DNA of 64,000 bases from a virus: the IMG/VR virus record IMGVR_UViG_3300005466_000025, positions 1 to 64,000 of that record; one strand, 5' to 3'. The position numbers were made by a program, and so were the translations under genes. The first letter of the stretch is position 1. Each line of letters opens with the position of its first letter. The notes beneath the pieces were generated by a model. The model made no database searches. It was given only the letters and a program-made list of their open reading frames with translations, and was not told where the DNA came from. This document shows positions 31,011-43,792 of the stretch, piece by piece.

Positions 31011-32204
31011 GTACCTGATGATCCCAACACCACTGTTGCCGGCTTTGAAAACAGTAATTGGCCGGGGGGATTAAATCCGACATTTGTCGGTCGTTAGCGT
31101 TGTCCGGAGTGAATACTGGATTGCAATTGCCGGCCCGAATTTGCCGGTCTATTTCCCACCGAGCCCTGTATTCAAGGTGGAATACTACAATGCAACGAGC
31201 TCTTGGGATTTCCCACACATTCCATTCTGATATTGGTAGTGGAATTCCCCGATGGCCCGACTGCAAGTGTTGTCCGGTACGGGCAACAACGTGGGATGCC
31301 TGTATCCATGCCGATGTTACGTTCTGGACAACGTATCTGCAAGCCTAGCCATAGCATGCTGGAACCCCTATATACCCCTAGATACAACCCTCTACCTCGA
31401 ATCCCGCATGGATACAGGGATTGCGGGCAAACCCTCGAATAGGCTTGACTAGGGTACTTGCAAGTCATTACGCTACAGGAAGCACCGCCGCACGCGGCGA
31501 GTTGCTCCCCTGGTAGCGGTCGGCGTCGGGGGTGAGGGGTTCCGGGGCACATATCCCTCGGAATACCCGCCGAATTGCCCCCTCGGAATTCGGTCCCGGA
31601 ATTGCCTAGGCAATCGCATAAGGGGACGAAATGCCGGGTTGTTTTCCGCCCTGCATATGCCAACCAGACTTGCGTATCGACCGGGCAATTCCAGGGAGTC
31701 GATCCCCGAAACAAAGCCAATGATACGGGTTAATCCCTGCGGCCTAATCCGGGGTCAATTGTTCCACGCTAGGAAATGGACGGGGCGAACCCCTTATGCG
31801 AATTAGGTCAACCATTCTCTAACGATTCGTCGATTGAATGAGTCGCTACCTCGGAATTCCACAGTGAACGGCCCAGAAATGCAGGCCATCAATTCCAGCC
31901 GGCAATTCTCATCCCTCACAACTGAATTCCCGATTCCTAGCTAGCCCATTACTACTGTATTCCACGTTGTCAACGCTCAGAACCGCCTAAATCAGCGGTG
32001 GAACGCAGAACGGCCCATTTACTAGCGTATTCGAAGTTGAATACGGCCGACACTTGGGTAAAGATTCGCATATGGTGCGTACCGTTACTGCGGTTATCCG
32101 GGACGAAATAGGAAAGGCTGGCGTGAATGGACGTGGAAAACGGGCCGCTTAAATAGGGTTCGGTACGGTAGGGGCAAGGCTACCCTTTACCCTCTGAAAT
32201 TGGG
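31011..32204. other. gene-free, repeat-rich region at the island start
   Basis: I see no credible gene here: the longest reading frames are Cys/Pro/Arg-rich and lack ribosome sites. The stretch is rich in AATTCC/GGAATT words and inverted repeats. Examples are a 9-bp stem at about 31269-31289 (TGTTGTCCG/CGGGCAACA), arms 31299-31312/31405-31418, the palindrome ATTGCCTAGGCAAT at 31601-31614, arms 31606-31625/31790-31807, and GTATTC..GAATAC pairs near 31169 and 32029. Two degenerate direct copies of GCCCATTACTA..GTATTC lie at 31946 and 32015. It could be a structured RNA, a replication origin, or worn-down cassettes of the kind that follow. Confidence 0.6.
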
Positions 32205-32297
32205 TACGGGGGGTCACTTATGCGGGGTTTTCCTAGTCCTGTTTTCTCCCTGGGCAATTGACGGTGATTAATCGTGAGCCTAGGGAGTCAATTGGAT

Positions 32298-32655
32298 AAT
32301 CCCTCAATAATGCGTCGGGTGAATTAAACGCTGTTTACCCGAAAGGAAATACAATGTCTGATCTGAATACAGAGACTCCGTTTTACTTTCCTACTCGTGA
32401 GCTTATGAACATTGAGACGCTTATTTCGGCGCGAATTGCCGAGTGTAAGCAGGCCGCGATTAAGCAGCCACATAACGCTCACATTCATCTCGAAAGTGTG
32501 CCTAGCTATGAGATAATGGCACAGAGAATTCGGGATGAGATTTCCCGTCGGTTTGAGGGAATCCGGGCGCATAACAATGGCGCTCTTTTCACGGTTAATT
32601 CCGACCGCTAGGTACTAATCAGACTGAAATGCATCCGGCGCATTATCGAGGGATT
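32298..32655 (+). repeat. inverted-repeat bracket A around gene 32354
   Basis: Arms 32298-32319 and 32635-32655: 19 of 21 positions complementary, one of the two changes being a G-U pair. Confidence 0.8.
32354..32611 (+). CDS. island gene, hypothetical
   Basis: 85 aa, helical (LISARIAECKQAAIKQPHNA, EIMAQRIRDEISRRF). CCGAAAGGAAA upstream is the ribosome site shared by most island genes. Codon choice and composition differ from the 20-31 kb genes. No family recognised. Confidence 0.7.
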   Translation: MSDLNTETPFYFPTRELMNIETLISARIAECKQAAIKQPHNAHIHLESVPSYEIMAQRIRDEISRRFEGIRAHNNGALFTVNSDR

Positions 32656-32684
32656 GTCCTAAAACCGAAAGGAAATCCCAGAAA

Positions 32685-32936
32685 ATGGCAAAGCTTTCCG
32701 CACGTAACAGAACGGAAATTGCACGGTTTAAGACGACGTTCAATTACGTTCGCTCATTGGACGGGGAAACGGTTACCGTCACAGAAAAGCGGGCGCTAAT
32801 GTCCGACGGCGTTGTCCTTTCTAATTCCGGCTACGGATGGAAAAAGAGAGGAAAATTGCGGTCGGGCGTTACCTCTGAGAAATGGATCAAGAACATGGAA
32901 TTGTCTCCCATGAATTGGGAGAGAATTTCCCGCTAG
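32685..32936 (+). CDS. island gene, hypothetical
   Basis: 83 aa, basic, with a beta pair (FNYVRSLDGETVTVTEKRAL). CCGAAAGGAAA upstream. It lies between the right arm of bracket A and the right arm of the outer bracket. Confidence 0.7.
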   Translation: MAKLSARNRTEIARFKTTFNYVRSLDGETVTVTEKRALMSDGVVLSNSGYGWKKRGKLRSGVTSEKWIKNMELSPMNWERISR

Positions 32937-32978
32937 AACGGAATAACCCCGCATAATTGACCCTCCGTATTCATCATG

Positions 32979-33512
32979 GTAAACGGGGTTTCATAATGCC
33001 GCTGATTGGCAATTTCTCAACCGAAAGGTGCGAAATGCCTAAGGCTGCTAATCTCAAAGGAATTCTCATTCGGATACCGCCGAATATGGCGAAAGCCGGA
33101 TGGGATATCGACGTCGATGTTTTGCGTGACTTTTGCAAGGCATTTGGCATAACGTGGGACATTTCTATCCGGTGGACTTCCGGACAATATACGCGCGGTT
33201 CGGCGGGAGTCCGGAGGGATTCCAACGGAAAAGAAACGCACCACATTACCATGTCGCAAATCAAGTCACAAGAGAGTGCGACGATCACAATTCTCCACGA
33301 ATTGTGTCACTGCATTCAACGGGAAAAGATCGGTTCCCACAAGGAATTCATGAACGAATATCGGCGCTATAGTTCCACGAACTATTCCGGCCGGTACGTT
33401 GCAAATCCGTTCGAAATTGAGGCGCGTGATTTCGCGGACGATAACGCTGCACAGTGGGGAGGAATCCTCTATTAGAGATTGCAAATCGGCGGCATTATGA
33501 AGCCTCGTTTAC
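32979..33512 (+). repeat. inverted-repeat bracket C around the zincin gene
   Basis: Arms 32979-33015 and 33476-33512. Of 37 positions, five differ from perfect complementarity and four of these are G-U compatible. Confidence 0.88.
33035..33475 (+). CDS. HExxH zinc metallopeptidase-like protein (SprT/zincin type)
   Basis: 146 aa from ATG 33035 (CCGAAAGG 8 nt upstream); an upstream in-frame ATG at 32957 lies in the left arm and is unlikely. The motif ILHELCHCIQRE (HELCH, about residues 88-92) is a zinc-binding HExxH site, and SHKEFMNEYRRY and EIEARDFAD supply further conserved acidic/His residues of small phage zincins. Target unknown. Confidence 0.8.
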   Translation: MPKAANLKGILIRIPPNMAKAGWDIDVDVLRDFCKAFGITWDISIRWTSGQYTRGSAGVRRDSNGKETHHITMSQIKSQESATITILHELCHCIQREKIGSHKEFMNEYRRYSSTNYSGRYVANPFEIEARDFADDNAAQWGGILY

Positions 33513-33523
33513 CATTTGGGATA

Positions 33524-33740
33524 GGGATTGGGCATTCTACTAATGCCCCGGTATTACCGAAAGGAAAACAACATGATCCGTTTCGCATTGCTTTCCGTAG
33601 TTCTGTGCTTTGTGATGGCGTTTTTTGCAGCCGGCATTTTCGTGCAATATCTCCATACGATGGGGTTTTGAACGTGAAAAGACGATAGACAATTCCCGCT
33701 AGATAAACCTTACCGGGGCATTATTAGAGTGTCCAATCCC
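33524..33740 (+). repeat. inverted-repeat bracket D around the 32-aa membrane peptide
   Basis: Arms 33524-33553 and 33711-33740, 27 of 30 complementary; two of the three changes are G-U pairs. The left arm can also fold locally (GGGCATT/AATGCCC). Confidence 0.88.
33573..33671 (+). CDS. 32-aa single-helix membrane peptide
   Basis: CCGAAAGGAAAACAAC precedes ATG 33573. The peptide (FALLSVVLCFVMAFFAAGIF) is one membrane helix with Arg at the start. It is the only gene of its bracket. Confidence 0.65.
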   Translation: MIRFALLSVVLCFVMAFFAAGIFVQYLHTMGF

Positions 33741-33803
33741 TAGCCTGAATTTCAAGGGCTCTATTGAGGCGGGAAGGCTAATTCAAACCGAAAGGTGAGA
33801 AAA

Positions 33804-34028
33804 ATGCCACGTTTCAATTTCGGATCGGAACGGGAAATTTGCGAGCAAATGGCTGCCGAATGTGAGGCAGCCTGGATCATTAGTGAATATCTATTCACTA
33901 GTGATATCCACGATCAAATTCTGGGCGACAATTGGCGCGAGAGAATCGAAAATCTCGCGTTTGACGTTCGTAATTTCGGGTCGCGTGTTCGTGCTGATAA
34001 TGGCGGGCTACTGTACGATTTCTCATGA
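33804..34028 (+). CDS. island gene, hypothetical
   Basis: 74 aa from ATG 33804 (CCGAAAGG upstream). Mostly helical (EREICEQMAAECEAAWIISEYL, NWRERIENLAFDVRNFGSR). No family recognised. Confidence 0.7.
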   Translation: MPRFNFGSEREICEQMAAECEAAWIISEYLFTSDIHDQILGDNWRERIENLAFDVRNFGSRVRADNGGLLYDFS

Positions 34029-34099
34029 TTAAGCGTTTGGTAATTCACTGGCGCGAAATCACAAAGGAATACGGATTCGGTACACTCCGAGTCTGGTAA
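34025..34099 (+). CDS. 24-aa miniprotein coupled to preceding gene
   Basis: ATGA overlap with the 74-aa gene. Sequence MIKRLVIHWREITKEYGFG followed by TLRVW. It stays inside bracket E, where two other brackets also end in a tiny overlapping ORF. Confidence 0.45.
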   Translation: MIKRLVIHWREITKEYGFGTLRVW

Positions 34100-34184
34100 T
34101 AAACAGCCGGCTTTCCCGCTTCAATAGAGTCCTTGAAAGGAATTAAGGGTAGAATTGAATGGGCGGTTTTCTGAAAGGAAAACA

Positions 34185-34451
34185 ATGCCGAATCCGAAGG
34201 TAATTGATATCGAACATCTTTTGCGGACGGGAAATCTTCTGTATAAGACGTTCGTGACTTACTCCGAATTTATCGTCACCGGAGCCGAATGGTATCGGGA
34301 AAGTGATGAGAGATTGGGCCAGGCTTATTACAACGTACTTTCCGTAATCCGGCCTGATATCGCAAAGGAAGTCTGCGGCGCAAATTGTGATCCGTTTTAC
34401 GACAACAATTTGCTTCCCGATTTCTTTGCGGCGGTCTACAAGCGATGGTAA
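34185..34451 (+). CDS. island gene, hypothetical
   Basis: 88 aa from ATG 34185 with CTGAAAGGAAAAC upstream. Helical, with CGANCDPFYDNN. No family recognised. Confidence 0.7.
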   Translation: MPNPKVIDIEHLLRTGNLLYKTFVTYSEFIVTGAEWYRESDERLGQAYYNVLSVIRPDIAKEVCGANCDPFYDNNLLPDFFAAVYKRW

Positions 34452-34534
34452 TTCTGACGGCATTTGGAATCATAATTGCCGTCACGCTTTGCGTAGTGAT
34501 TCTGCTCGAAATTTGGGCTAAGTACGCCAAATAA
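34445..34534 (+). CDS. 29-aa membrane peptide coupled to preceding gene
   Basis: ATG overlaps the stop of the 88-aa gene. One hydrophobic helix (VILTAFGIIIAVTLCVVILL) with a short polar end. Confidence 0.55.
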   Translation: MVILTAFGIIIAVTLCVVILLEIWAKYAK

Positions 34535-34628
34535 GAGCCAAAATTCCGCCCATTCAATTCTACTCTTGATTCATCCCCTAGAGGGTAATTGCGTTGAAAT
34601 GCCCGTTAGCCTTTCCGAAAGGAAAGTC

Positions 34629-34874
34629 ATGACTAAAGGTGAATGCATCCTCTCAGATTTCGGTTTCTATCGTGTCTGGAACGAGGATATGCAGAGTGAA
34701 AAACACGATGGTAGTTTGTATACCATTCGTGTCCATCGTGCGGAAATCAACGGGAATGTCTACCGTATCCTTTGTGAAAGCTATTACGGTTCCACGAAGG
34801 TATATCGGAACGGCACTTATCTCGGGGATTACGAATTCTGTTACGAGGATTTGCCGAAATTGTTCGCATCGTAA
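34629..34874 (+). CDS. island gene, hypothetical
   Basis: 81 aa from ATG 34629 with CCGAAAGGAAAG upstream. Beta-rich (SLYTIRVHRAEINGNVYRIL, YGSTKVYRNGTYLGDYEF). No family recognised. Confidence 0.7.
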   Translation: MTKGECILSDFGFYRVWNEDMQSEKHDGSLYTIRVHRAEINGNVYRILCESYYGSTKVYRNGTYLGDYEFCYEDLPKLFAS

Positions 34875-34945
34875 TGCGTACCGCATTGTTGTGGTGCGTA
34901 GTGTTCTGGCTGATAATTCTGGACCTAATTCTTAGGTACGGATAA
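34874..34945 (+). CDS. 23-aa membrane peptide coupled to preceding gene
   Basis: TAATG overlap. One hydrophobic helix (TALLWCVVFWLIILDLIL). Same arrangement as the peptide at 34445. Confidence 0.5.
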   Translation: MRTALLWCVVFWLIILDLILRYG

Positions 34946-35011
34946 CACCGGCAAAACGGGCATTTCTACGGAATTACCAATAGGGGTAATTCTGAGGGAA
35001 AGGAAGGGAAA

Positions 35012-35197
35012 ATGGAGTACGGAATTCCCATCAAGACAGCCGAACAGCGCGCAAAAGTCCGGCGTAAAAAGGCTGTCCACAATTCTTCCACGAAGCACGA
35101 AGTTCGGAAGAATCGTTTCCGTAATTCATTCACCCCCATTACTAACGGAATGGACGAGGATATTCCGACTAGTGGTGAGGGTTGGACGCTTAAGTAA
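35012..35197 (+). CDS. basic island protein
   Basis: 61 aa, strongly basic N-terminal half (TAEQRAKVRRKKAVHN, KHEVRKNRFRNSF), suggesting nucleic-acid binding. AAAGGAAGGG precedes ATG. I found no matched long-range arms around this gene. Confidence 0.65.
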   Translation: MEYGIPIKTAEQRAKVRRKKAVHNSSTKHEVRKNRFRNSFTPITNGMDEDIPTSGEGWTLK

Positions 35198-35210
35198 AGC
35201 GGCCTTTTTT

Positions 35211-35243
35211 CCTGCTATTTCTAAGCAAATTAGGGATAGCAGG
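35211..35243 (+). promoter_or_regulatory. 14-bp local RNA hairpin
   Basis: CCTGCTATTTCTAA and TTAGGGATAGCAGG pair fully if two U-G pairs are allowed, around a 5-nt loop. It follows GGCCTTTTTT and lies between two genes; it may end or cleave the transcript. Confidence 0.65.
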
Positions 35244-35328
35244 GATGAATGCCGAACGGTATTCAATTCGGATAACAACCCCTACATTGTTTCCGAATAG
35301 GCGTTACCGTAGGGAGAATGAGAGGGAA

Positions 35329-35898
35329 ATGCCTAAGGATATTCCTAGCGGAATTACCCGAATCGGAGGTAAATCTACCGAATTGGGTAGGAGTAATTTC
35401 CTCCAAAAGGCTGCTGAAATCCGAGCTAGGATTTTGGCAAATCAGCCGGAATACAAAGACATAACTAGCGACATAATGTCTGGTGAGTATTCCGGCACGC
35501 TATCCAAACCGGCTGCGGGTTTCGCAGCAAAAAGAAAGAGGAAAGGGAACAAAATGCCTAAGACCATTTCAACGCTGAATAATTCCTCCAAGCTGAACGG
35601 AAAGCGCGGACGCAAGGGGGAATTCAAGTCCGAGGATTTCGTTATGGATATCGGCGGAATGCTGGACGTCACAGAGGAAATGGTGAGCGGTATTTCCAAG
35701 TTGGATGCAAAGGATAAGTTCGACTCGGAATTGCTTTTCACTACCGATAACGAGAACGTCAATAAGTACCGGACTAATCGTTTCGGTGGTCTTAAGCGTG
35801 CCGCTATTGTTGCGAATGGTAAGGACTCGAAGTATTCCCTCGAATACGGCGAGGATGACGAGGGGAATAAGGTTCTCGTTATCGTCCGCAACGCGTAA
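35329..35898 (+). CDS. island protein, larger, basic N-terminus
   Basis: 189 aa from ATG 35329 (GAGAGGGAA upstream); the frame is open from 35245. Residues 1-75 are basic (PAAGFAAKRKRKGNK). A second start with AAAGGG at 35554 would give a 114-aa C-terminal product (MPKTISTLNNSSKLNGKRG...), so two proteins may be made. No family recognised. Confidence 0.7.
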   Translation: MPKDIPSGITRIGGKSTELGRSNFLQKAAEIRARILANQPEYKDITSDIMSGEYSGTLSKPAAGFAAKRKRKGNKMPKTISTLNNSSKLNGKRGRKGEFKSEDFVMDIGGMLDVTEEMVSGISKLDAKDKFDSELLFTTDNENVNKYRTNRFGGLKRAAIVANGKDSKYSLEYGEDDEGNKVLVIVRNA

Positions 35899-35993
35899 TT
35901 CAAAGGCAAAACCTACGCCAATTCTCGGGCGTAAACGTCTAGCGGAAATTACGCTAGCGGGAACCGAAATCTACGGATAGGCGGGAGAGAAAT

Positions 35994-36017
35994 GGTGGGG
36001 GGAGAAATCCCCCCACC
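35994..36017 (+). promoter_or_regulatory. 9-bp GC hairpin
   Basis: GGTGGGGGG and CCCCCCACC pair perfectly around AGAAAT, 26 nt before the next gene. No T-run follows. Confidence 0.65.
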
Positions 36018-36043
36018 TAACCCCTATTGAAAGGAGAAATGAA

Positions 36044-36253
36044 ATGGATAATGCCGGCCGGCAATTACACAGAAATAGAGAGCTCGGGAAAATGGAAATC
36101 GACCGGCAATTAAAATCGAAATGGGGGCCGCGAGATTTTTTAAAATTTTTGATTTTGCGAGATTTTTACTTTTTTTTGGTGATAACCGGCAAAACCTTAT
36201 TTATCTTATATTATTTTACCGTTTCAAGCCATTTTTTCAGGTGTCATCGGTAA
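36044..36253 (+). CDS. putative membrane-anchored protein
   Basis: 69 aa with AAAGGAG upstream. A polar basic N-terminus precedes a hydrophobic segment (DFYFFLVITGKTLFILYYFT). The second half is very AT-rich. Coding status moderately likely. Confidence 0.5.
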   Translation: MDNAGRQLHRNRELGKMEIDRQLKSKWGPRDFLKFLILRDFYFFLVITGKTLFILYYFTVSSHFFRCHR

Positions 36254-36261
36254 ATTTTATA

Positions 36262-36360
36262 GGTTTATTTCATTGAGGGTACAGCTTTTTGAGAGCGATT
36301 TTAAATAGACTTTTTCGCGTCTACTGATCGCCAAAGTTGTACTCTCAATGAAATAAATCC
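36262..36360 (+). repeat. large perfect RNA hairpin ending the island
   Basis: Arms 36262-36288 and 36333-36360 pair over about 26 bp; the two changes are both G-U compatible. The inside refolds (GCGAT/ATCGC and TAGAC/GTCTA). The motif CTCTCAATGAAA of the right arm recurs at about 36585. It could be a processing site, terminator or replication structure. Confidence 0.8.
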
Positions 36361-36428
36361 AAAGGAGGAATAAGAAGATAAAATGTAGCTTACGGCTAAC
36401 AACTTTATCTTGCGCGGGCCGCTCTTAT

Positions 36429-36450
36429 CGGGGGAATTAATTTTCCCCCG
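36429..36450 (+). promoter_or_regulatory. 8-bp hairpin
   Basis: CGGGGGAA and TTCCCCCG pair around TTAATT, 29 nt before the next start codon. The 36361-36478 gap holds nothing else I recognise. Confidence 0.55.
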
Positions 36451-36478
36451 GTAATGGCAATCCGAACAGGGAGGAAAG

Positions 36479-36643
36479 ATGGTCACGATTAAAAAGACAA
36501 ACGGGGAAATAGTTATCCTCGGGACAAGCGCAGAGAACCTTTTAATATGGGTTCTTGATTGGTGCGCGAAATCAAAGTTTTCTCCTCTCAATGAAACAGA
36601 AATTGATGAGGCGAAATTTCTTTTAAAAAACCTAAAGGGATAG
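36479..36643 (+). CDS. 54-aa hypothetical protein
   Basis: GGGAGGAAAG precedes ATG. Mixed alpha/beta (TNGEIVILGTSAENLLIWVL). No family recognised. Confidence 0.6.
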   Translation: MVTIKKTNGEIVILGTSAENLLIWVLDWCAKSKFSPLNETEIDEAKFLLKNLKG

Positions 36644-36654
36644 GAGGGAAGGAA

Positions 36655-36765
36655 ATGATTAAGTGGTATTGTGCATTAAATCGCACTTGGATTAATTTCA
36701 GGTGTAGCCACTATGGCTGCGATTTGCACAAGAATAATAAGGAGGAAAGTAATGTGTCATCGTGA
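36655..36765 (+). CDS. 36-aa Cys/Trp miniprotein
   Basis: GGAGGGAAGGAA precedes ATG 36655. Three Cys and several aromatic residues (WYCALNRTWINFRCSHYGC). Overlaps the next gene by 14 nt. Confidence 0.45.
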   Translation: MIKWYCALNRTWINFRCSHYGCDLHKNNKEESNVSS

Positions 36766-37003
36766 TTCAAATTGCGGCGCACAAACTTGTAGGCGCTGTG
36801 AATCCGTTCTTGAATCAATTCCTGCTACTCCAAGATCAACGTTTGATTTTTTGGAGTATATTAATTCAGCCGCACCAACGACTAAATCATACGAAAGAAT
36901 TTATCTTGCGTATGTTGAGTCGTCAAAGGAAGGTGATACAGAAACAACCGCAATGCTTCGTGCCGTTCTTAGGGATATGCATTACAGAATGGGCGGAAGA
37001 TAA
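36752..37003 (+). CDS. Cys-rich small protein
   Basis: 83 aa from ATG 36752 with AAGGAGG upstream. The N-terminus CHRDSNCGAQTCRRC can bind zinc; the rest is helical. Its stop overlaps the next ATG. Confidence 0.65.
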   Translation: MCHRDSNCGAQTCRRCESVLESIPATPRSTFDFLEYINSAAPTTKSYERIYLAYVESSKEGDTETTAMLRAVLRDMHYRMGGR

Positions 37004-37231: not shown

Positions 37232-37280
37232 TACCCCTTCATCTTAGGTTTTATTACCTAAGGTGAGGGGGTATTTTTTT
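37232..37280 (+). terminator. strong intrinsic terminator
   Basis: An 18-bp stem (TACCCCTTCATCTTAGGT with ACCTAAGGTGAGGGGGTA, G-U pairs included) is followed by eight T. It separates the Cys-rich miniproteins from the sigma-factor gene. Confidence 0.9.
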
Positions 37281-41547: not shown

Positions 41548-41909
41548 TGAGATATCCATTTCTGGCAATGTTTCAGAAGATGGATGAGCCTGAAACGACC
41601 TATATTGATAAGGTTGCGGGACATTATGAGCTAAACAATTTCCCTGGCTGTAATCAAATGGTTGTTTCAAATCACTCATGCGTCTACCCTGAATTCAGGG
41701 GAATGGGTCTTGGAACTCAGCTAGCAAAGGAGAAGATTTCAGTCGCAAAGAAGGAAGGCTATGACTACATGATTGCAACGGTTGTGTCAACAAATACTGT
41801 ACAACTTGCAATCATGGAAAAGAATGGCTGGAAACTCCTGGACACTTTCTTCAATCGGGAAAGTGGAAACGAAGTTAATATTTTTGGAAGGAGGTTAAGT
41901 GAGCAATAG
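41547..41909 (+). CDS. GNAT-family N-acetyltransferase
   Basis: 120 aa. Motif A is clear: CVYPEFRGMGLGTQLAKE (R/Q-x-x-G-x-G/A), followed by IATVVSTNTVQLAIMEKNGW, a typical GNAT motif B region. The N-terminus is short. It overlaps the first amidoligase gene by 11 nt and is therefore probably part of the amidoligase system, acylating an amine of the same product. Confidence 0.85.
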   Translation: MRYPFLAMFQKMDEPETTYIDKVAGHYELNNFPGCNQMVVSNHSCVYPEFRGMGLGTQLAKEKISVAKKEGYDYMIATVVSTNTVQLAIMEKNGWKLLDTFFNRESGNEVNIFGRRLSEQ

Positions 41910-42651
41910 ATTGTTTGGCGTGGAAATTGAATGTTATGCGCCAGAAGGTGAAGAAGGTTGGGACGGTGAAAATGGAGTAGAATATACCGCAAGTGTATTG
42001 GAGGAACAAGGTTATCCTTCATGGGCACGCCTAACCGATGCAGATAGTTCCCTCTATCATGGCTTTGGGGTGGAAGTAAAAAGTCCACCACTAGCAGGAT
42101 CAAATGGATATAACGAGGTAACTTCTATCCTCAATATCCTGAATGATCATGACTATTGGATTGATAGTTCATGTGGCCTTCATGTACATTTGAATGCCCC
42201 GGAATTTGTCGATGATCCGAAGCTAATTAAGAGGGCGGTAAAGGCATGGATGCGAAATCAGCACCTAATTAATAATATGGTGGCTGAATATCGCATTAAT
42301 AATTCCCACTGTGCGCCTTGGGATGAGGACTATTTGTCTGATCTTGAGGAAGTATTGGCGGAGTATGATACCGCCGAGGAAACCCACCGTGGGGCAATTA
42401 ATGTCGGAAGTCTCACTATTCATGAGACAATTGAAATCCGTCAGCATGAAGGTACATTAGTCCCGGAAGCCGTTGTTTCCTGGATTAAATTCTGCCAGGC
42501 ATTTATTGATGCAATTCCTGGCACAACGATCCAAAAAATCTCCGACGAGGAACTATTCCTCCGACGATTAAAGGTGGAAAGAAATGCAAGTAGATTCCTT
42601 ACCACAAAGGCTCGTGTTGCCAAACGGAGGAAAGCTGAATCAGGACGTTAG
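41899..42651 (+). CDS. amidoligase (glutamine-synthetase-like COOH-NH2 ligase) 1
   Basis: 250 aa from GTG 41899 (GGAGG upstream). Amidoligase_2 signatures: GVEIE (7-11), CGLHVHLNAPE (92-102) and IEIRQHEGT (178-186). These supply the metal/ATP-binding Glu, His and Arg residues of the glutamine-synthetase-like fold. Proteins of this family form amide or peptide bonds. It is a paralogue of the 43040 protein with nearly identical motif spacing. Confidence 0.9.
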   Translation: MSNRLFGVEIECYAPEGEEGWDGENGVEYTASVLEEQGYPSWARLTDADSSLYHGFGVEVKSPPLAGSNGYNEVTSILNILNDHDYWIDSSCGLHVHLNAPEFVDDPKLIKRAVKAWMRNQHLINNMVAEYRINNSHCAPWDEDYLSDLEEVLAEYDTAEETHRGAINVGSLTIHETIEIRQHEGTLVPEAVVSWIKFCQAFIDAIPGTTIQKISDEELFLRRLKVERNASRFLTTKARVAKRRKAESGR

Positions 42652-43039: not shown

Positions 43040-43792
43040 GTGTACGACAAGCCTTATGATCGTAAGTTTGGAATCGAGTTCGAATTCCTGCTTAGGAGCA
43101 TTCGAGAAAATGGATATGATTCCAGAGGCACTACTTTTCGAAAGCTCCTAGAAAAGAACGGACTAGGGGATTTCAATATTGGCTTTGACGGAAGCGAATG
43201 GGAAGTCAAAACCCCTGTTCTTGCCGGTCCAAATGGATTCAAGCGGGTAAAGAAGTTCTTGGCGCTTATGAAAGATATGGGCGCAAGGGTTCAGCTAGAT
43301 CATGATGGACTTCACGTTCACCATGATGCCCCGGAATTCATTGGTAATAGTGAAGCCGTTGTCAGACTTGTTGAGAACTGGTATAACAACCAGGAATCAA
43401 TCATGGAAATGGTGAATTACATTCGCAATAGAAACTGGGCCTGTCCTATTTGGGCGCAGGGCGATGTTAGTACGCTAAAGCAGCGTGTTGCCGAGTTTGG
43501 ATATGAAGGGGCAATGTCCTACTTTGGCCGAAAGAATCTCAATATTAGTGCCCTACAAAGGCATGGAACAATTGAGATTCGTCTACATGAGGGAACTCTG
43601 AATTATGAGGAGGTTCTTTCATGGGTGCGTTTCGGCCAGTCATTCATTGCAAAGGCACTGGATGAAAATGATTCACTGGGATATAATCCCCCAGTTGAGC
43701 TTCTAAGGAAGATCAATGTAACCCGTAATGCATCTCGCTTTATCACAAGCAAGGTGGGTCGTAACGATTATTCAGTTGTAAGTTATGCGTAA
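43040..43792 (+). CDS. amidoligase 2
   Basis: 250 aa from GTG 43040, directly after the deaminase with AGGAGG upstream. Signatures: GIEFEF (11-16), DGLHVHHDAPEF (89-100) and IEIRLHEGT (178-186). Position of the Arg (181) equals that in amidoligase 1, which marks a duplication. The divergent residues between could give a different acceptor or donor. Confidence 0.9.
   Translation: MYDKPYDRKFGIEFEFLLRSIRENGYDSRGTTFRKLLEKNGLGDFNIGFDGSEWEVKTPVLAGPNGFKRVKKFLALMKDMGARVQLDHDGLHVHHDAPEFIGNSEAVVRLVENWYNNQESIMEMVNYIRNRNWACPIWAQGDVSTLKQRVAEFGYEGAMSYFGRKNLNISALQRHGTIEIRLHEGTLNYEEVLSWVRFGQSFIAKALDENDSLGYNPPVELLRKINVTRNASRFITSKVGRNDYSVVSYA

Follow-up and report, generated by a model that had tools for sequence, protein, structure and literature searches.

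The early mRNA of phage T7 is processed by RNase III at local hairpins between genes. Stems formed by the leader and trailer around a transcript unit are already known from pre-rRNA, where RNase III binds the duplexes flanking 16S and 23S rRNA (PMC8708148). This widely conserved enzyme has mRNAs among its substrates in actinobacteria (PMC2936110), and in the icaR mRNA of Staphylococcus aureus it cuts the paired 5' and 3' UTRs, whose short UCCCC-type pairing covers the ribosome site and represses (PMC3868564). The published account of E. coli operon mRNAs describes each ORF as its own folding unit in the polycistronic message (PMC5318159). In cluster K mycobacteriophages, the SAS/ESAS elements combine a conserved ribosome-site sequence with inverted repeats beside a subset of genes, the ESAS being 17-bp repeats with one consensus and a spacer of mostly 4-13 bp (PMC3203893).

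It is an open question how genes that share a bacterial message are translated and decay independently of one another. Here we describe a phage locus in which consecutive protein-coding genes are enclosed by a chain of long predicted stems. An earlier reading of the sequence alone (hereafter the sequence-only reading) knew of no described phage system with this layout; our limited searches of open-licence literature likewise found no description of a chain of stems around protein-coding genes, which is not proof of absence.

Architecture of the bracketed island

The window, namely the whole 64,000-nt stretch analysed, comes from a virus record of 102,756 bases that has a direct terminal repeat of 100 bases. 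The virus is a soil-type phage, and its nearest named phages are distant: the capsid shares ~25-40% identity over partial length with Arthrobacter, Gordonia and Marinitoga phages among others, and the terminase 26% identity with a Microcystis phage. The phage genome includes a tmRNA gene and ~31 tRNA genes (record 84.0 kb and 93.8-102.6 kb), in addition to two adjacent genes (41899-42651 and 43040-43792) with 38% identical products, which we take to be probably amidoligase-like. The CpG ratio is 1.28 in the ~31-36.5 kb segment versus 0.71 elsewhere in the record, a composition unlike the rest of the phage that suggests a foreign origin; the island may therefore be foreign DNA. It comprises the following features.

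32201..32229, + strand: outer bracket, 5' arm; 28/29 positions paired with 32945-32973, helix score 62
32249..32294, + strand: two putative short helices, interleaved, enclosed by the outer bracket; CCCTGGGC/GCCTAGGG and CAATTGAC/GTCAATTG, read from the sequence
32294..32325, + strand: bracket A, 5' arm; 30/32 paired with 32628-32659, score 60
32354..32611, + strand: gene A, 85 aa; SD CGAAAGG; occupies 85% of loop A
32628..32659, + strand: bracket A, 3' arm, partner of 32294-32325
32685..32936, + strand: gene 2, 83 aa; inside the outer bracket, between the A 3' arm and the outer 3' arm
32945..32973, + strand: outer bracket, 3' arm, partner of 32201-32229
32976..33017, + strand: bracket C, 5' arm, 42 nt; 41/42 paired, 32 uninterrupted, score 89
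33035..33475, + strand: gene C, 146 aa; occupies 96% of loop C
33474..33515, + strand: bracket C, 3' arm; starts within the gene C stop codon
33514..33553, + strand: bracket D, 5' arm, 40 nt; 38/40 paired, score 78
33573..33671, + strand: gene D, 32 aa; hydrophobic, membrane-type by sequence
33711..33750, + strand: bracket D, 3' arm, partner of 33514-33553
33750..33778, + strand: bracket E, 5' arm; 29/29 paired, score 69
33804..34028, + strand: gene E1, 74 aa
34025..34099, + strand: gene E2, 24 aa; start overlaps the E1 stop
34110..34138, + strand: bracket E, 3' arm, partner of 33750-33778
34140..34166, + strand: bracket F, 5' arm; 27/27 paired, score 63
34185..34451, + strand: gene F1, 88 aa
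34445..34534, + strand: gene F2, 29 aa, membrane-type; start overlaps the F1 end
34546..34572, + strand: bracket F, 3' arm, partner of 34140-34166
34584..34607, + strand: bracket G, 5' arm; 22/24 paired, score 44
34629..34874, + strand: gene G1, 81 aa
34874..34945, + strand: gene G2, 23 aa, membrane-type; start overlaps the G1 stop
34955..34978, + strand: bracket G, 3' arm, partner of 34584-34607

All seven inverted-arm pairs of the sequence-only reading are present where it placed them, with arms of 24-42 nt that are slightly longer than the 20-37 nt it gave. The arms close loops of 157-715 nt in all seven pairs, and the outer stem jointly encloses bracket A and gene 2. The stems follow each other in the order outer, C, D, E, F and G with at most 11 nt between neighbours (outer/C 2 nt, E/F 1 nt, F/G 11 nt); the C and D stems overlap by 2 nt and D and E have 1 nt in common. 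The longest uninterrupted runs comprise 32 pairs in C, 29 in E, 27 in F, 18 in D, 16 in the outer stem, 15 in A and 12 in G.

The enclosed units are 63-96% ORF, and the arms are intergenic except for two bases of one stop codon, that of gene C. A GAAAGG ribosome site lies 5-15 nt inside every unit; the CGAAAGG proposed for every loop occurs in six of the seven, F reading TGAAAGG. The ATG follows 17-28 nt after the end of the 5' arm (for gene 2, of the preceding A 3' arm), and the distance from stop codon to 3' arm is 8-16 nt in five of the seven units, with an overlap in C and 39 nt in D. In each of brackets E, F and G, a gene overlaps a tiny ORF downstream of it, and no overlapping pair is split; the tiny ORFs of 23-32 codons are putative genes. 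No intrinsic terminator was called between the arms on the + strand, the next strong one being at 37232-37273, nor did we find a convincing promoter between them, promoter-like matches in the region being fewer than in shuffles.

Gene C, the sole island protein with a likely identity, probably encodes a zinc metallopeptidase-like product of HELCH type with weak SprT/M78 similarity (Pfam SprT-like, E=0.003, below the curated cut-off). Profile searches of Pfam and PHROG gave no match for the gene A product, and no Rfam family was found in the loops. The two interleaved helices at 32249-32294 were also considered as a pseudoknot; since the connecting loop would be only 1 nt, they are probably mutually exclusive hairpins. 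Directly upstream of the chain, 31011-32200 is a stretch of ~1.2 kb without a convincing gene, in which short perfect inverted pairs (31299-31311/31406-31418 and 31614-31625/31790-31801) are found; it may hold structured RNAs or decayed units.

Predicted pairing at the RNA level

A helix scan of the whole 102,756-base record (loops of 100-1500 nt; GC 3, AU 2, GU 1, mismatch -5; threshold score at least 42) revealed exactly seven helices on the + strand, which are the seven brackets, with scores of 89 for C, 78 for D, 69 for E, 63 for F, 62 for the outer bracket, 60 for A and 44 for G. The comparison with shuffled controls that the sequence-only reading had proposed was run and did not refute it: six genomes shuffled with dinucleotides kept within 1-kb blocks gave two matches in all, with a maximum of 47. 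Bracket G taken alone is not convincing, and the other six lie far beyond the controls. Other viral records gave scattered single matches, many in GC-rich DNA, and a chain around consecutive genes was absent from those scanned, including amidoligase loci, Bantam and Faja. The region has one other strong helix, a local hairpin at 36262-36359 that precedes a ribosome site and has a 27-bp stem and a 44-nt loop. The sense strand of 35101-36900 is as structured as the chain (shuffle z -7.3 to -7.9), without enclosing stems.

Unconstrained folding of 32150-35050 gave an energy of -1168.8 for the sense strand (z -19.2 against 24 shuffles) and -986.5 for the antisense strand (z -11.4 against 16 shuffles). 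The minimum-energy fold of these 2.9 kb recovers from 23/32 stem pairs in A up to 29/29 in E, and nearly all in six stems, with ensemble mean pair probabilities of 0.86-0.99. For each 5' arm, the predicted duplex energy is -33 to -66 kcal/mol with the matching 3' arm, compared to a mean of -14.8 and a best of -26.5 with other arms. As had been claimed, the arms match within a pair and differ between pairs: no arm resembles those of other brackets to a significant degree, which argues against a shared DNA repeat. An ATAATGC-like motif common to the arms looked real by eye and was rejected as not significant (p = 0.17).

The non-Watson-Crick positions of the full arms comprise 19 G-U, 1 A-C and 7 others; with arms delimited without favouring G-U, they comprise 14 G-U, 1 A-C and 6 others (binomial p = 5e-4), where symmetrical DNA mutation is expected to give G-U equal to A-C. 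The sequence-only reading that most changes within pairs keep G-U pairing is borne out for the set as a whole and fails for pair G, which has two plain mismatches and zero G-U. A C-to-T mutation process biased to one strand could produce a similar G-U excess; against it counts that A exceeds T on the + strand of the island. The U of the G-U pairs is found on both arms.

Altogether, the G-U excess, the better sense fold, the pairing of each arm with its own partner and the unrelated intergenic arms indicate selection on RNA rather than DNA repeats, as the sequence-only reading had held for a single + strand transcript. The gene-enclosing stems have very probably been selected on the + transcript of this one genome. 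There is strong support for a + strand polycistronic message, running from ~32.2 kb to 35.0 kb or beyond, that is predicted to fold as a chain of stems. It is equally well supported that each 24-42 bp stem encloses one translation unit (a gene or an overlapping pair) that has a ribosome site of its own, units one and two lying together under the outer stem.

Relatives of the island were found neither by blastn against phages and plasmids nor by tblastn with two island proteins against phages. Viral contigs queried with the metallopeptidase, sigma-like, amidotransferase, phosphoesterase and joined island proteins gave none, and neither did genome contigs searched with the terminase alignment and the metallopeptidase. 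Among the terminase relatives found, none carries the metallopeptidase and none the bracket chain. In one distant relative (G005), the region at 138-142 kb has scattered inverted repeats and no chain around genes; it is a gene-poor stretch with several inverted repeats in addition to ATCACYCGTTCGAGGG-like repeats. The terminase ORF of a relative (L018, 1986-4784) has 933 codons versus ~630, which suggests an intein-like insertion.

What the stems may do

The functions suggested by the sequence-only reading, namely RNA processing, stability or per-gene translation, are all plausible. The best explanation, to which we assign a probability of about one half, is that the stems act like the processing stalks of pre-rRNA, with host RNase III cutting the transcript into gene units. 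We propose that the enzyme would cut the abutting duplexes, all of them or only some, and release separate mRNAs, each with both ends still paired, by which neighbouring genes would be uncoupled and exonuclease attack slowed. The 27-32 uninterrupted pairs of C, E and F would be long enough for RNase III (~20 bp or more), and the lack of a + strand terminator and of a convincing promoter between the arms favours processing of one transcript; the runs of only 12-18 pairs in the outer, A, D and G stems may limit double-strand cutting. Also counting against processing, neither an RNase III nor an RNA ligase gene was found in the phage, and RNase III cutting of mRNA often lowers stability rather than raising it.

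A close rival, possible although doubtful, holds that the uncut stems are structural insulators that make each translation unit its own closed RNA loop. Insulation would prevent mispairing or coupling with neighbours, and it might, with similar reservation, bring the stop codon of a unit near its own ribosome site, such that ribosomes may restart on the same gene. The coincidence of the brackets with unit borders, the overlapping pairs never being split, fits this. So does the placing of the stem bases: they lie 17-28 nt upstream of the ATG, close to where an initiating ribosome would end, and follow most stops by 8-16 nt, which leaves the ribosome site outside the stem. The ORF-wide folding units reported for E. 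coli operon mRNAs point in the same direction (PMC5318159). Nevertheless, near-perfect duplexes of 27-32 bp would normally serve as RNase III substrates, 24-42 bp are not obviously needed for insulation, and the model leaves the ribosome sites unpaired only to a moderate degree (0.31-0.67).

It is unlikely that the stems serve mainly to protect the RNA rather than to allow cutting or insulation, their double-stranded ends keeping exonucleases off and endonucleases from entering and thereby preserving an early message that carries few ribosomes. The unusually structured downstream region of 35.1-36.9 kb (z -7.3 to -7.9) and the 27-bp local hairpin at 36262-36359 agree with such a role, whereas bulk shielding would not demand so exact a respect for unit borders. 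We consider very improbable a conditional switch, in which a stem forms only when the enclosed gene is untranslated and then alters expression of that gene or the next: the bracket C 3' arm begins inside a stop codon, so that a terminating ribosome would open the stem base, but the stems include neither ribosome sites nor starts, and the same logic would be required in all seven units. Although the CpG ratio of the island suggests a mobile or foreign segment, it is highly unlikely that the arms are DNA-level features (transposon ends, cassette recombination sites, operators or replication sites), given that they are unrelated across brackets, that G-U far exceeds A-C, that folding is stronger on the sense than on the antisense strand and that no recombinase or transposase family was matched by the island proteins in Pfam and PHROG.

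More broadly, and at somewhat less than even odds, the polycistronic message of a DNA phage might be built as a chain of self-closed gene loops, with every stem specific to its own two arms, a general way to make each gene physically and translationally independent and one without a described mRNA counterpart. If true, the stem-closed translation units would offer a natural and testable case of gene independence, and the stems would be candidate parts for insulating genes in synthetic operons.

Relation to described systems

As in T7 early mRNA, a polycistronic phage message may be split gene by gene here; intercistronic RNase III sites of the T7 type do not describe the island, whose arms pair across 157-715 nt rather than as local hairpins. 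With icaR the island shares the pairing of the leader and trailer of one bacterial mRNA, but its stems are 24-42 bp long, leave the ribosome site outside and occur seven in series. The ORF-centric folding of E. coli operon mRNAs differs in that the preferences described in the part of that work considered lie within ORFs, not in long closing stems around units.

Several other systems were considered and rejected. Compared to SAS/ESAS, the island arm pairs are unique and gene-spanning, with loops of at least 157 nt and no significant similarity between pairs. The arms share no core like that of integron attC cassettes and pair across the gene rather than locally; they are unrelated between pairs and accompanied by no transposase family in the island, as opposed to transposon terminal inverted repeats; and no single repeated site recurs among them as in operator or stoperator repeats.

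The closest likeness is to the pre-rRNA stalks, in which a long enclosed RNA lies between complementary flanks that pair, serial units lie in one transcript and the duplexes are of a length suited to RNase III (PMC8708148), a length that C, E and F reach without interruption. All seven helices likewise place a complementary leader and trailer around a unit. The stalks enclose stable non-coding RNA, whereas the island loops are ORFs with ribosome sites: its units are small protein-coding genes, its seven stems are chained with one nested, and cutting is here a proposal. The island would work like the pre-rRNA stalks and is not a member of that class.
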